Origin: Oscillospiraceae bacterium
Lineage (GTDB): Bacteria > Bacillota > Clostridia > Oscillospirales > Ruminococcaceae
Assembly (NCBI GenBank): GCA_009782265.1
Contig: WRJM01000006.1
Span: 1-35,287 of the forward strand
Direction: 5' to 3'
Length of the DNA stretch: 35,287 nucleotides
Part shown: piece by piece, positions 11,839 to 31,491 of the stretch
How the letters are laid out: every line of letters begins with the position of its first letter
Numbering within the stretch: the stretch's first letter is position 1
The notes under the pieces: model-generated
Seen by the model: the letters and a program-made list of their open reading frames with translations, nothing else
Told to the model about the DNA's origin: nothing
The model's database searches: none
Translations under genes and position numbers: made by a program

Positions 11839-14800
11839 TTATTTTTTATTGTTTCTGCCGCTTTTATTGTCCTTATTTTTTTCTACCCAGTCCGCCGCCG
11901 CCAAAGGCGACAGAATCATTTTAACCGTTTTCTTGGTTGCTGACAGTTTTCCGGAAAAACTTTCTTCGCTGTCGGGCATATCGTGGGTGATTTGCTCACG
12001 GTAAGTCAGCGTGCACTGTAAAAGCTCAGACGTAATCCTTTCCGCTTTCTGGATTTTGTCAAGCCATTCAAACGGCGGCATACCGCTTATGGAAAGGTCG
12101 TCGAAAACCCAACTGTCGCATAACGCTGTATCATCAGCGCAGAGGTAAAGCGAAAAGTTAAAATGCCGTTCATGCTCACCGTACATGATTTCCACTTCAA
12201 AATCCCGTACCGTAAAGCCGTTAATCCCTTCCGACTCAAACCCGCAGAAAGAACAGCTCCCGCCGTATCCGAATAATTTAGCGTTTACGTCCTTTGCAAA
12301 ATAATTCCGCGCATTAAGCTCATTTTCGGTTATATCACGCGCAACCGAGCGCAAAAATCCGAATTCTTCCTTACTGAAAGACGGTAACGGTTTCAAATAA
12401 AACGCAAGCTGATCGGGAATGACAATCTTCGCGCCTGCTGCACCCATATAACGCCGGCGCATAAGGTTTTTATTTTCACCGGTAATGATTATTTCGATGA
12501 TGTCCGCGAATTCTTCTTTCAAATAATCTTCACGCAGAATAATGTACTTTTGGGTTAAAGCGCGTTTTTCCGCGTCTATACCGTTTTGAATGTCAACAAT
12601 GTCAACAATAACATCATTTTCACCTAACAGAGCAACTTTATTTGATTTTAACTCCGCAACTTGAATTTTACCGAACAAATCAACAATATCCGCTTCCGCA
12701 AGCTCGTCGGACGCAAGAATTTTAACAACTTTCTGCGGCTCAAAGTTATAACGCCCCTTGTCGTAAATAAACCCGAATGTTCTGCCGTTCAGCACGCCGC
12801 TTTTGATTAAAGCGTTAATATCGCCGATGATTTCAATCAGTTCCGCGTTGGTTATTTCGGGGGAAATCATAAACATGGTTTCATAAACCGAGAAGCAGTA
12901 GTTGTTGTCAATATCGGGCTGAACGGTGATTTCCGCGCCCTGTTCTTTAAGTGCGCGCAAAAATTCCGCAACCGGTCTGCCCTCCGCGAAAGCGTCAAGC
13001 ATTAATTTCACCGTTTCGCTGTAATCCTGATACGTCAGGAACAAACGCTTATGCTTTTGCAATATTTTAATCAGCTTCTGTATGTCTTTTACTTTAACAT
13101 TGCTTGTTTCAATCGGGAATTCGTCGGTGGAAAGCAGAACATAAAGCTTGCCGTCTTTTAAAGCAATCCGGTATTCGCCGTGGTACATATCGTCAAGCGA
13201 CGCCAGCAGTTTCTCGAATTGTTCGCCGCTTTGCAGTGAATCGCCGCCGTTTAACGCTTCGCTCAAGACGCGCTCCGCTAAGCTCATAAAGCCGTCGAAC
13301 AGGTCGTAGTCAGTGAAAGCGGGGTTATTCTCAGAGCTGATGTACATAACATTTCCGTCTTTATGAAATTCATAAAGATAAGTTACGCCGCCTTCGTTAC
13401 CTTCCTGCAGTTCTTCGCCTTCCGCTAACACGGGCGGTTCCCACTCATAACCGGCGTAAAGGATTCTGTGGGACAGGCTTCCGAGCATGCGGTTCATGCT
13501 TTCAAGCTTCGCATTGATGAATTCCTGATAAGCCGCGCCGTTCCAGTGGCTTTCGTTAGGAACTTGCTTGATACTGCTGAAATACGCAAGCTTCTGCATA
13601 TCCGAATAATGCAAGGGTTCTTCCCCTTTGTTATACCTGAGCGAAACAGCACCCAAAAAGCTTTTCCTAAGCTCTTCCGGAAAGTTTCCGGTCAGAATAA
13701 AGTTTTTAATAAACTCAAATGCGTAGGATTCGGGAAGCAAATGATAAAACCCGTCGCCGTCCGCGTTGGGGTGCAGTCCCAGTACAAAAAACCGCTCATA
13801 ATCGGAAATAATTTTCTTCACGCTTTCCTCAACATGCGAAATCACCTCAAACTCTCTATCCGGACGTATACCGGTACGGAACGAGGTAATATGTCGGTTG
13901 GGAACACTGATGAAAAACGCCGAAAGCTTCCGCTCGTTAAAGCCGGTGTCTTCGCTTTTAATTAAGCCTGTAAGCTCATAAGTTGAAAAGAAGTTGTATT
14001 TCTCCGTCAGAAGCTTCACCATATCGGCGCGCTTAGACATTGCCAGCGCAAACGGAATCAAGTAAACAAAGCCGTCGTTTTCGTAGCAGATGAAGTCAAC
14101 CACGCTTTTACCGCCTTGGGTAAAGCGCACTACATTGACGTCAACGGCTTTATTGTAATGATTATAAACCTTATAAAATTCAATCAGCTTACCGTTATTC
14201 ATCACGGCTATATTAAAGGTACGCTTGTCATTCATTTCGGTTGATTTTTTATTGTTAAGGATTTTCTTGCGGTTAAACGCGAAGCAGAGTTCAACAAGGC
14301 TGATATAATCGCCTTTGTCAGACGTAAGATTAATAAAGTTTTCTTTGATTCTTTTATGCTGTTCGGGGTCAACCTTAATGACGATTTCCGTACCCTTGAA
14401 AATCGGGCGGCGCAGGTTGATGTCGGTGATTTTCAATAAACCGTCGTTGTTCATAATGCAGAAGCTGAAATTATTGGAACGCATAGAAAGCCATTCAACA
14501 TTCATAAAGACGCTCTTCGCGCCTACGCCGAAACGTCCCTCACTGCTCGCGGCGTTTTTGGTATTCCGCCCGAAGCTGAGGTAAAACATGAACTGCTCTA
14601 ATATAAAGCCTACCTCGTTGTATGAAATGGAAATGGTGTGATTATCCTTGAAGTTGACCGCGATTTTTACGTCATCCTCGTCATAATCGCAGTCGAAGGC
14701 GTTCTGGAAAAGCTCCCTGATGATGCTTTCCACCGGATAATCCTTGAGGTTGAGGAGCGTGTTGAAAGCGGTACGCCCGCTGAACATCTCATTGAAATAC

Positions 14801-14949
14801 GCCATGAACTCAGCGTGCTCGTCCTCTCCCGTCATCAGCAGAGCGTCAAGCGTTTCAAGCGTGGTTGACATCTTGTAGAAGTCTTTATTGGCGTGCCCTT
14901 CATAAAAGTCGCCGATAAGCGCCGTTACTTTCCCGGTATTTCCCGCCAC
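11839..14949 (-). CDS. Large HSP90/sacsin-like GHKL ATPase-domain protein
   Basis: 1036 aa, GTG start with AAGGAG RBS; N-box ELFQNAFDCDYDED, atypical G1 box ISYNEVGF, G2 box GRFGVGAKSVF; C-terminal CSFCG...C-x5-C cluster. Confidence 0.8.
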   Translation of the reverse strand: MAGNTGKVTALIGDFYEGHANKDFYKMSTTLETLDALLMTGEDEHAEFMAYFNEMFSGRTAFNTLLNLKDYPVESIIRELFQNAFDCDYDEDDVKIAVNFKDNHTISISYNEVGFILEQFMFYLSFGRNTKNAASSEGRFGVGAKSVFMNVEWLSMRSNNFSFCIMNNDGLLKITDINLRRPIFKGTEIVIKVDPEQHKRIKENFINLTSDKGDYISLVELCFAFNRKKILNNKKSTEMNDKRTFNIAVMNNGKLIEFYKVYNHYNKAVDVNVVRFTQGGKSVVDFICYENDGFVYLIPFALAMSKRADMVKLLTEKYNFFSTYELTGLIKSEDTGFNERKLSAFFISVPNRHITSFRTGIRPDREFEVISHVEESVKKIISDYERFFVLGLHPNADGDGFYHLLPESYAFEFIKNFILTGNFPEELRKSFLGAVSLRYNKGEEPLHYSDMQKLAYFSSIKQVPNESHWNGAAYQEFINAKLESMNRMLGSLSHRILYAGYEWEPPVLAEGEELQEGNEGGVTYLYEFHKDGNVMYISSENNPAFTDYDLFDGFMSLAERVLSEALNGGDSLQSGEQFEKLLASLDDMYHGEYRIALKDGKLYVLLSTDEFPIETSNVKVKDIQKLIKILQKHKRLFLTYQDYSETVKLMLDAFAEGRPVAEFLRALKEQGAEITVQPDIDNNYCFSVYETMFMISPEITNAELIEIIGDINALIKSGVLNGRTFGFIYDKGRYNFEPQKVVKILASDELAEADIVDLFGKIQVAELKSNKVALLGENDVIVDIVDIQNGIDAEKRALTQKYIILREDYLKEEFADIIEIIITGENKNLMRRRYMGAAGAKIVIPDQLAFYLKPLPSFSKEEFGFLRSVARDITENELNARNYFAKDVNAKLFGYGGSCSFCGFESEGINGFTVRDFEVEIMYGEHERHFNFSLYLCADDTALCDSWVFDDLSISGMPPFEWLDKIQKAERITSELLQCTLTYREQITHDMPDSEESFSGKLSATKKTVKMILSPLAAADWVEKNKDNKSGRNNKK

Positions 14950-14966
14950 TCAAATCACTCCTTTAC

Positions 14967-16628
14967 TTATACTTTATTATAAAGCTCAATAAACTTTTGA
15001 TACGTTCTGGGAATTTTAAGTTCATATTTGCAATGCTTCCAAATCCCGATTAACGCGGCGAGCTTCATATTATCGGACAGCGCGCTTGTTTCTTCCGCGA
15101 TAATCTTGAAGTCGGTTTCCTTGCCGGTCAGTTTCCGTGCGGCTTTTAACGCTTCTCTTATTTCGGGAATATTGGCTTTGATGTCTTTTTCCGGTTTTTC
15201 GGGCAGGTCATCCGCTGTATGCAAAACCATGTTTTCGTCAAGGAAAACCCTTTTATTCCTAAATACCGCGATTTTTTCGGTGATTTCCCCGAAAACCCGC
15301 TCCCCGTCTATTTCATTCTCTTTTAAAATATAAGCTAAATCCAACATGGGCAGCAGTTTCTGCAATTTTTCTTTCCCTGCTTCGCCCGCGACAAATTTTA
15401 AGTCTAAAATCAGAACCGTTAAATGCTCTTCAATATCCGGAATGTCAAACAACAGGGATTTATCGGGAATGTGCCCGCAGAACATCCGTATTGATTCGCT
15501 CAGGATGGATTCACGCAGGATTTTACCGTCTGTTTTATATTCTTCATCACAGAAAAGATAAAACACGGGATTCTCTTTTGCGGCTTTTCTGCCGCCTCTT
15601 GCGTATCTTTGTTCCAAAACCGCGGGGTTTTCAGGGTATTCATAGTTAATGATATGCGTGATTTTTTCTGTATTAATGAACATTGTACCGCAAAGGTCGT
15701 TGGTGATGATGATTTGCGGCTCTGTAATACTTTCGCCTTTAAATTCGCCGCTTATAAATTCGGCTTCGTTCACGCCGCTGTCGTAAACGCATATACTCTT
15801 GCTGTCTTTATAAAACTCGGATAAAGCGTTTTTAACCAAGGTTACGGTATTTTGCGCCGTGCAGTAAATCACCGTGCGGTTCTCCGGGTTTGACAGAATG
15901 GTTTCTGTTTCTTTCAGGAACGCGCCGGTTTTATTTTCCCCTTTGTAGCTGATGGTTTTTACCGTGTAATTCCCCTCCATGTTTCTGCCCGCGATAATGG
16001 AATCTTTCAGCTCGTCAGCGGAGAAATCGGCTTCTCTTCTTTTTTTCTCGTTGCGTTTCAATAAATGCTTCACAAGCGTTGATAAATTTTCGCAGGTTTC
16101 ACCGAAATCATCGGGCGCGGGTGCGTTAATCAGCAGTTTATCCGCTTTTATACCGATTGCGTTTATATAAGCATCTGTGTTAATCTTGCAGGAAAAAGGA
16201 AGGTCAATAACCATTAAATCCCAAACGAACTTTTGATTTTCCTTTACCGTTTTTGCGGTTATAGAATTTCCTTTGCTTTTAATCAGCGACTCCGAAGTCA
16301 TCATGCAGAGGTTAGAAATTGACGGTGAAATCAATTCCGGCGTTTTATCGTTCACGCTTAAATACTTGAATTCAACGCCCATATCCCACAGGAACGCAGA
16401 ATACCAGCTTTTCACCAAATGTTCAGGCGCAATCACAATGATGTTGGGTTTTTCCGTTTTAGTTAAAACGTCATTAACGCAAAGCTCCGCCGCCTGAATC
16501 TTTTTGGTTTCCAGCCGGTTTATCATCAGCGCGTAACCGTGTCTGGAAAGCCTTTCAGGCAACGACAGCACTTCAGCGTCTATTTCCGCATTGTTGAGCC
16601 AAAGCCATTCTATGTTACTCATAAGCAC
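14967..16628 (-). CDS. SNF2/SF2-like helicase with degenerate Walker A/B (putative pseudo-helicase)
   Basis: 553 aa; IIVIAPEHLVKSWYSAFLWD (motif Ia-like), WDLMVIDLP at the DEAH position, INAPAP at the TATP position, IIITNDLCGTMFINTEKITHIINYEYPENPAVLEQRYARGGR (motifs V/VI). Confidence 0.7.
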   Translation of the reverse strand: MLMSNIEWLWLNNAEIDAEVLSLPERLSRHGYALMINRLETKKIQAAELCVNDVLTKTEKPNIIVIAPEHLVKSWYSAFLWDMGVEFKYLSVNDKTPELISPSISNLCMMTSESLIKSKGNSITAKTVKENQKFVWDLMVIDLPFSCKINTDAYINAIGIKADKLLINAPAPDDFGETCENLSTLVKHLLKRNEKKRREADFSADELKDSIIAGRNMEGNYTVKTISYKGENKTGAFLKETETILSNPENRTVIYCTAQNTVTLVKNALSEFYKDSKSICVYDSGVNEAEFISGEFKGESITEPQIIITNDLCGTMFINTEKITHIINYEYPENPAVLEQRYARGGRKAAKENPVFYLFCDEEYKTDGKILRESILSESIRMFCGHIPDKSLLFDIPDIEEHLTVLILDLKFVAGEAGKEKLQKLLPMLDLAYILKENEIDGERVFGEITEKIAVFRNKRVFLDENMVLHTADDLPEKPEKDIKANIPEIREALKAARKLTGKETDFKIIAEETSALSDNMKLAALIGIWKHCKYELKIPRTYQKFIELYNKV

Positions 16629-30080: not shown

Positions 30081-30938
30081 TCATTTAATATTTTCAATTA
30101 AATCTGTCAAATAAACATATTCAGGATAATCCCGCCGGATTCTGTCCGCGCACCGCTGACAGAATTTGATTTCCTCCTGCCTGTCATCACGCATAGCCTG
30201 CTTCGCGCCCCAAAGGTGGGTAAAATCATTCTGCGGTTCAAACAGCCTATCCTTGTCAAGCAAGGTTTCAACCGGCTGTTTCAGCCTGTCCGCACACAGC
30301 GCAAGCAGTCTTTGCTCCGCATAAACCATATAGCACAATACATCACCCGTATCTTCCGCCGACTTCATAAAATCAATTGCCATATTGACATAATATTGCT
30401 TAAAGCTTTCATCAGGTAAATATAAAAACGCTGTATTTAGCGGCAGAGCCACGGGTAAAACCGCAGGCTGGGTTTTATAATTAAATCTGCCGTCAAAATT
30501 ATAACCGGATTTCATTTGAAAATAATCTATATCCGGATAAACATTAGGGTTTAAGTCCTCTCTGTGCGCAGCTGTGATTTTAATGTTAAGGTCAAGCTTC
30601 TTCCAAACGATAAAGTCCGTGTCAATCATAACAACAGGGGACGGCGTTTCCCGCAGGGCTAACAGCTTCCCCGCCGCCCAGAACATCACCGGATTAATCC
30701 CCTCCAAGTCATCGGGAAGAATCGCTTTAACTTCATTCCATATTGAAGTTATACCGATTTTTTTATAATAATCCGCGGAAGCTAAGTCGCAGACTAAATC
30801 AATTTTACCGTTTTTTTTTCGCCACGTCAATGCTGATAAAACCGTGTTGTATAAATCGAATTTTTCTATTTTTAACTTAGCATTTATGCCGTTTTTTGCA
30901 AAGAAAGGCGCGAATGAATTCACATGGATTGCTCTCAT
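30081..30938 (-). CDS. Putative glycosyltransferase-like protein (DUF6734-like)
   Basis: About 285 aa from ATG at 30938 (MRAIHVNSFAPFFAKNG...); DxD-like VVMIDTDFIVWKKLD; start codon overlaps upstream gene stop (ATGA). Confidence 0.6.
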   Translation of the reverse strand: MRAIHVNSFAPFFAKNGINAKLKIEKFDLYNTVLSALTWRKKNGKIDLVCDLASADYYKKIGITSIWNEVKAILPDDLEGINPVMFWAAGKLLALRETPSPVVMIDTDFIVWKKLDLNIKITAAHREDLNPNVYPDIDYFQMKSGYNFDGRFNYKTQPAVLPVALPLNTAFLYLPDESFKQYYVNMAIDFMKSAEDTGDVLCYMVYAEQRLLALCADRLKQPVETLLDKDRLFEPQNDFTHLWGAKQAMRDDRQEEIKFCQRCADRIRRDYPEYVYLTDLIENIK

Positions 30939-31441
30939 ATAATATGCACCCCGTACCCGCCGAAATGATTCAGTGCACAGCTTCCGAAGGCATATGAACC
31001 AAAGCTCCCGTAATGCCCGAAACTTCCGTAACTCCCGAATGAACCTGAACCGAACCGGTAAGAATCGGATGTATAAAACGAGCCCGAGCTGTAGGATTGA
31101 AAGCTTCCGGTCAGCCATAAACCGAAACTGCTTTTCAACGGCGTGGTTAGATGTATTAAAGGCGTGTTTTGATGTATTGACGGCGGGTTAAATATTACTA
31201 TTTTATAATCTTCCGGCGGTTTTTCACTTAATCCGAAAGCGTAGGCAAGACGTGCGTTTAAGTCATTGCTGTAGGCTGTTTGGGTTAATTTACGGACATA
31301 AAGCTCGCCGCCGTTGGCGATTAACCAAGGCATAAGACTGCCGCCCGATAAATACCCGCGCAGAGAGGTTATATCGAAATTGCTTTTTATATCTTCGGCG
31401 TGCCAAATCTTAACCCCGTTTAGCCATAGACAGCAGTTCAT
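30935..31441 (-). CDS. Hypothetical protein with folded N-terminus and Phe/Gly/Ser/Tyr low-complexity repeat tail
   Basis: 168 aa; NFDITSLRGYLSGGSLMPWLIANGGELYVRKL N-terminal module, then SIHQNTPLIHLTTPL and GSFGSYGSFGHYGSFGSYAFGS repeats. Confidence 0.7.
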   Translation of the reverse strand: MNCCLWLNGVKIWHAEDIKSNFDITSLRGYLSGGSLMPWLIANGGELYVRKLTQTAYSNDLNARLAYAFGLSEKPPEDYKIVIFNPPSIHQNTPLIHLTTPLKSSFGLWLTGSFQSYSSGSFYTSDSYRFGSGSFGSYGSFGHYGSFGSYAFGSCALNHFGGYGVHII

Positions 31442-31463
31442 TTTTTTCTAATCTCCAATAAAA

Positions 31464-31491
31464 ATTATAAGAGCCTGTTTATTTATGATAA
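31464..31491 (-). promoter_or_regulatory. Candidate promoter of the repeat-tail protein gene
   Basis: Minus strand TTATCA-16 nt-TATAAT immediately upstream, overlapping the end of the CCA/PAP gene. Confidence 0.4.

Follow-up and report, generated by a model that had tools for sequence, protein, structure and literature searches.

A DUF6734 enzyme of predicted GT-A fold and a serine-rich, C-terminally tagged protein as a candidate enzyme-substrate pair of Clostridia

Introduction

Two overlapping genes in a 35,287-nucleotide stretch of an Oscillospiraceae genome (the whole stretch is called the window here) raise the question of whether a small protein with a Gly/Ser/Tyr/Phe tail is the substrate of the enzyme encoded directly after it. 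An initial annotation of the sequence had suggested such a relationship, possibly of a RiPP-like kind, with the N-terminal module of the small protein serving as a leader or docking domain, and had offered a phase-separating or adhesive tail as the alternative. Its authoring model knew of no described system of this composition, and our search of the literature, which covered DUF6734, related systems and the motifs of the tail, agrees: nothing was found on the two proteins together, and the pair is undescribed so far as the literature searched shows.

Results and Discussion

Gene layout

The features of the locus are as follows, all on the minus strand.

30935..31441 (-): tail gene, 168 aa, encoding an N-terminal module, a Ser-rich tail and a C-terminal tag (ORF, homologs, co-occurrence with the enzyme)
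31226..31441 (-): N-terminal module (CLWLNG..NFD..LRGY..GGSL..WL), residues 1-72, predicted to be folded (AlphaFold pLDDT about 96; profile A7)
30980..31108 (-): Gly/Ser/Phe/Tyr tail, residues 112-154, predicted to be disordered, candidate acceptor region (pLDDT below 50; repeat statistics)
30938..30958 (-): GYGVHII, the C-terminal tag, for which the family has the consensus GYG[ILV]xx[IV] (alignment A6; genome-wide tag search)
30935..30938 (-): ATGA stop/start overlap of the tail gene and the enzyme gene (sequence; tcat on the plus strand)
30081..30938 (-): DUF6734 enzyme gene, 285 aa, predicted GT-A glycosyltransferase with DTDFIVW, LNTAFLY, AEQRLL and THLWGAKQ (Pfam, AlphaFold, Foldseek against the PDB, conservation)
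31453..31456 (-): GGAG, a Shine-Dalgarno-like site 11 nt before the ATG of the tail gene (read in the sequence)
31464..31491 (-): promoter-like site TTATCA-16-TATAAT, 10/12 consensus match, near chance expectation

The four nucleotides shared by the two genes, reported before, were verified, and a -4 overlap is likewise found in 21 of the 79 relatives' loci. The enzyme frame opens at 31118 in the list of open reading frames (345 aa), while relatives and the gene overlap indicate 30938 as the start. A promoter belonging to the unit itself had also been proposed; the site is present, but it is weak evidence because chance would give 4.4 such sites in 2 kb and seven were found.

Elsewhere in the window (11839-16628, minus strand), a protein of 1036 aa has an HSP90/gyrase-like ATPase region that PADLOC matches weakly to TmtA (best 1.7e-7); it adjoins a 553-aa helicase-C protein with an HmaA match of 1.3e-8. 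These two genes lie next to the cell-wall (dcw) gene cluster and, going by these matches, could possibly encode a defence pair.

Co-occurrence of the two genes

As a search model at the phylum level, the Pfam family of the enzyme (PF20508) recovered the window genome alone and is therefore too insensitive, so profiles built in this analysis were used instead. Scanning named genomes with the enzyme profile yielded 80 loci, nearly all in metagenome-assembled genomes of Oscillospiraceae, Ruminiclostridium or Clostridia. A tail protein is encoded upstream on the same strand in 79 of them; the remaining locus (L080) lies at a contig end with only 285 bp of upstream DNA. A search for tail proteins beside other DUF6734 genes had been proposed as a check, and they recur there almost without exception.

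Other samples, which partly overlap, gave the same picture. Among 299 genomes of the same family, we found nine clear homologs of the tail protein besides that of the window, and all ten genomes with this direct type carry the enzyme; in five of the six other enzyme-bearing genomes the tail protein begins with an N-terminus of another type. One further match to the tail protein, in G118 (L011), was judged spurious (E 5e-4, an internal stop and no N-terminal match). Matches of the enzyme profile extend to further families of the order and, beyond the order but still within the class, to two more. A tail protein was found in 34 of 35 order-level loci inspected and in all seven enzyme-bearing genomes outside the order, in two of which the tail gene is located elsewhere on the chromosome.

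The enzyme gene follows the tail gene directly in most loci of the homologs, while in one clade the two are 0.6-2.1 kb apart; gaps exceed 500 nt in 28 of 79 loci. The intervening DNA in one clade encodes, in the case tested, a DUF6709 membrane protein. Such membrane proteins, often in two copies, separate the pair in L078 (3336-3998) and similar loci, and genes for zinc-ribbon, TPM-like and sirtuin-like proteins lie downstream in the same clade. Since they are present only in this subset of loci, the membrane proteins were rejected as a core component.

Part of this co-occurrence would be expected if a fixed gene neighbourhood were passed on by vertical inheritance. As the whole cause, such inheritance appears to be spoken against by the spread over four families, the different gene neighbourhoods and the two dispersed cases. 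An origin in phages or plasmids was likewise rejected, as we found no phage match for the N-terminal module and neither a phage nor a plasmid match for the enzyme.

The serine-rich tail

The tail protein of the window has no Pfam match. Its homologs share about 72 N-terminal residues and a C-terminal ending with the consensus NRFGYGIHLI, while the middle varies freely in length, keeps GSF, GSY and TSF and often includes an EYEYEYE or EWEWEWE stretch. Many tails (L002-L010 and L051-L130) have one or more of these alternating stretches amid GSF repeats. Across the relatives' loci the proteins range from 72 to 350 aa, and their tails either repeat [GST]-S-[FY] every 4-5 residues or consist purely of GSGSGS. 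In 76 tails of the f1 type we counted 14.7 serine-aromatic steps per tail compared to 5.8 in shuffled sequences, most commonly five residues apart; in 19 tails of family f13 the values were 7.3 and 2.7, and the steps are mostly four residues apart. The window tail uses four Gly codons and six Ser codons, a diversity that rules out repeat expansion at the DNA level as its origin; the tail is thus no DNA-repeat artefact.

Serine is the residue common to all tails. Pure (GS)n tails occur at the loci L154, L179, L181 and L182; the genomes with such a tail include G011 and those of f192. In these repeats no residue other than serine carries a hydroxyl group. Two of the nearest relatives of the window (L053 and L055) have GSGS tails in which aromatic residues are almost absent, that of L053 being nearly pure. 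Among close relatives, retention of serine equals that of Gly and Phe and does not exceed it. These results show a low-complexity tail conserved in its chemistry, with a serine every few residues, though its sequence drifts freely. AlphaFold predicts the window protein to be disordered beyond residues 1-72. A pentapeptide-repeat solenoid was considered and rejected: only 5 of 29 members match PF01469, the f13 repeat is four residues long, and the window tail is predicted to be disordered.

One possible reading of these tails is that of a low-complexity scaffold forming condensates or a network through aromatic stickers, with the enzyme as a client or acting on some other target. The predicted disorder of the window tail and the regular serine-aromatic spacing in tails that are mostly Gly/Ser/Phe/Tyr would fit this. 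However, several members with pure GSGS tails have no aromatic residues and still keep the enzyme and the tag, and we consider such a scaffold unlikely. The aromatic-free tails, together with the lack of any signal peptide or wall anchor apparent on reading the tail-protein sequences, weaken the phase-separating or adhesive alternative of the initial annotation as well.

The DUF6734 enzyme

The enzyme of the window is a member of PF20508 (E 2.2e-9; 37.6 bits against a cut-off of 27; residues 25-276 aligned). All 49 aligned relatives match this family at E<=0.01, although the f13 relative tested scores 20.2 bits, below the cut-off. While searching the PDB by sequence gave no significant match, an AlphaFold model based on 49 sequences (pLDDT 95.8) points to a GT-A-type fold, in line with the glycosyltransferase fold expected from the first reading. 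The best PDB matches of the model in Foldseek are LtpM with UDP, LicC, RmlA-type nucleotidyltransferases, GlyE and glycogenin. LtpM has an E-value of 3.8e-5 and a probability of 1.0, which GlyE and glycogenin also reach; these two rank below LtpM, as do XXYLT1 and UGGT. TM-scores to known glycosyltransferases are modest, about 0.33-0.43 over the query.

The DxD-like motif first noticed in IDTDFIVW is borne out by conservation, D106 and D108 being invariant in a set of 28 relatives and again in 49. Little or no variation was seen in the alignments at DTDFIVW, NTA, AEQR and H-x-W-G-x-K. The order of these motifs (DxD, Asn, (D/E)Q and H..G.K near the C-terminus) is that of GT8 enzymes.

These matches also raise the possibility of another GT-A-fold enzyme, for example a nucleotidyltransferase adding a nucleotide or phospho-group to the tail. 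RmlA, LicC and IPCT share the fold of glycosyltransferases and are among the top Foldseek matches. Nucleotidyltransferases typically have a glycine-rich N-terminal nucleotide loop, but this loop was not seen in the enzyme alignment, and the DxD and H..G.K motifs are invariant. An activity of this kind seems to us quite improbable; the predicted structure, the GT8-like motif order and the missing loop favour a glycosyltransferase.

A constant C-terminal tag and exchangeable N-termini

If the enzyme modifies the tail protein, some part of that protein may guide it. For the N-terminal module of the window, AlphaFold predicts with confidence a small fold (residues 1-72), which matched no known fold in the PDB by sequence or by structure. 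The N-terminus differs widely among relatives: f13 proteins carry one or two copies of a ILAMDPEHYREIDGVVFDLDSYAKH unit, genus g76 a 140-aa QKEKYRFAG module, G011 and f156 a module of the LCxxxFxIP...YxxIG kind and f192 a FFNERCYTY module, while in some relatives the N-terminus is reduced to a short FIDxxYK segment. The state of the N-terminal module changes at least six times on a tree of 59 enzymes, and the short form nests within the clade carrying the 72-residue module. Whatever its N-terminal type, the protein closes with a Ser-rich tail followed by GYG[IL]xx[IV]. Several unrelated modules have thus replaced one another at the N-terminus in four families of the class, while tail, tag and enzyme are constant.

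The window-type module also recurs in two larger proteins (L133 and L134; genomes G806 and G691) from another family of the phylum, accompanied there by an IP/IG-type module (LCxGxYxIPL..YIGIG). No Pfam name was found for L133; L134 runs on into repeats that look Sel1-like, and an AAA-ATPase-like gene lies nearby on L136. The joint presence of the two modules in L133 and L134 hints that they may belong to one set.

The C-terminal tag behaves differently from the N-terminus. GYG is invariant in the tail-protein alignment, while L050 has Phe in place of the conserved Tyr of the tag. The tag motif closes 78 of the 2311 open reading frames in 79 of the loci, a single one wherever a tail protein is encoded. 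Whole genomes were searched with a degenerate DNA pattern for GYG....-stop, and with the first pattern 15 of 18 genomes had a single match, always in the tail gene paired with the enzyme. It missed the window because the tag there has Val; a second pattern matches it. Two f156 genomes (G1099 and G1055) have no tail gene near the enzyme, and each encodes a tagged, GS-tailed protein on another contig. In two enzyme-positive genomes, G366 (L139) and G010 (L155), tag patterns and local reading found no tagged tail protein; the G010 enzyme is divergent, with DRD for DTD. No tagged, tailed protein was found in 13 enzyme-negative genomes, judging by the stop codons that were matched and by the loci inspected. 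Nearly all enzyme-positive genomes searched therefore encode one tagged tail protein.

The C-terminal tag is conserved and linked to the enzyme; the N-terminus is not conserved. The tag is more likely to be the recognition element than the N-terminal domain, and a leader or docking role for the module, as first assumed, is disfavoured by the swapping and loss of this part.

Hypervariable middles flanked by conserved ends, in a small two-gene unit with overlapping genes, would also suit a RiPP-like cassette, in which the tail would be the core peptide, destined for glycosylation, cleavage and export, and the conserved C-terminus a follower peptide. Yet the modules at the N-terminus are unrelated and form no single leader family, and sizes span almost a fivefold range. 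No peptidase or exporter family is common to the neighbours of the 79 loci; these neighbours vary from clade to clade, and most of them are housekeeping genes. This lack of a conserved protease or exporter makes the strict RiPP reading weak, and we regard it as very unlikely.

Comparison with known systems

The function of PF20508 has not been described, and the tail partner is no part of that family. Like the enzyme studied here, LtpM and GT8-type enzymes such as glycogenin and GlyE have a GT-A fold, a DxD motif, Asn and (D/E)Q motifs and, near the C-terminus, H..G.K; here, in contrast, the candidate acceptor is encoded by a gene of its own, as a protein bearing a tail and a tag. Glycogenin resembles the proposed enzyme in attaching sugar to a protein, but it is a single self-glucosylating protein with a Tyr acceptor. 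A bacterial glycogenin analogue, with the multivalent Ser tail bearing many starting sugars for a growing storage glucan, would suit the glycogenin match in Foldseek, but it is highly improbable: glycogen synthase (glgA) is above the cut-off in 37 of 38 genomes whether the pair is present or absent, so that there is no association of glycogen with the pair, and the tag Tyr is no strict primer because it is Phe in L050.

Serine-rich repeat adhesins also combine a Ser-rich low-complexity substrate with glycosyltransferases encoded alongside it. These adhesins are large, exported by the accessory Sec system and wall-anchored. The tail proteins, in contrast, are small and end in the tag, with neither an export signal nor an anchor apparent, and no Sec genes are among the conserved neighbours of the loci. 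Glycocins and other glycosylated RiPPs share the dedicated glycosyltransferase adjoining a ribosomal substrate; they differ from the present pair, where no leader family, protease or ABC exporter is common to the loci and the candidate substrate has a predicted folded N-terminal module. Two of 29 members show a weak match to HxsA4 (NF038313) in the repeat region (best 4e-6), and the window protein scores 14.6 bits against a cut-off of 55. This match is compositional; there are no His-Xaa-Ser repeats, and the partner is no radical SAM enzyme.

Proposed function

Comparison of sequences and structures shows that tail, tag and predicted GT-A-type enzyme are retained together, with an exchangeable N-terminus, in nearly all genomes examined. 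It is probable that the two proteins are a dedicated enzyme and its substrate and that the enzyme, guided by the tag, glycosylates the serine tail. The enzyme would bind the C-terminal tag GYG[IL]xx[IV] and, with a metal held by its DxD motif, would move sugar from a nucleotide sugar to serines along the tail in the cytosol; the chemistry would most likely be O-glycosylation. The pure (GS)n tails point to serine as the acceptor. Speaking against the proposal are the modest TM-scores, the nucleotidyltransferases among the top structural matches, the enzymes of G366 and G010 for which no tail protein was found, and the retention of serine at no more than the level of Gly and Phe. Overlap or closeness of the genes may keep the enzyme and the tail protein in step. 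Whichever N-terminal module a lineage uses as the working or anchoring end would thereby come to carry a tail glycosylated at multiple sites. The main idea of the initial annotation, that the tail is a substrate of the coupled putative glycosyltransferase, thus survives on the strength of co-occurrence and the predicted GT-A fold, without docking through the N-terminal module and without a RiPP in the strict sense. More tentatively, and with slightly less than even confidence, the pair could represent a new class of intracellular modification in which a tag and a Ser tail make a module the substrate of a dedicated GT-A enzyme, the modules themselves being swappable.

Conclusions

If this is true, common gut Clostridia have a cytosolic protein-glycosylation system whose substrate is marked by a short C-terminal tag. 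The proposal assigns the uncharacterised family DUF6734 a role that can be tested directly, and the tag and enzyme together could serve to attach sugars to chosen proteins.
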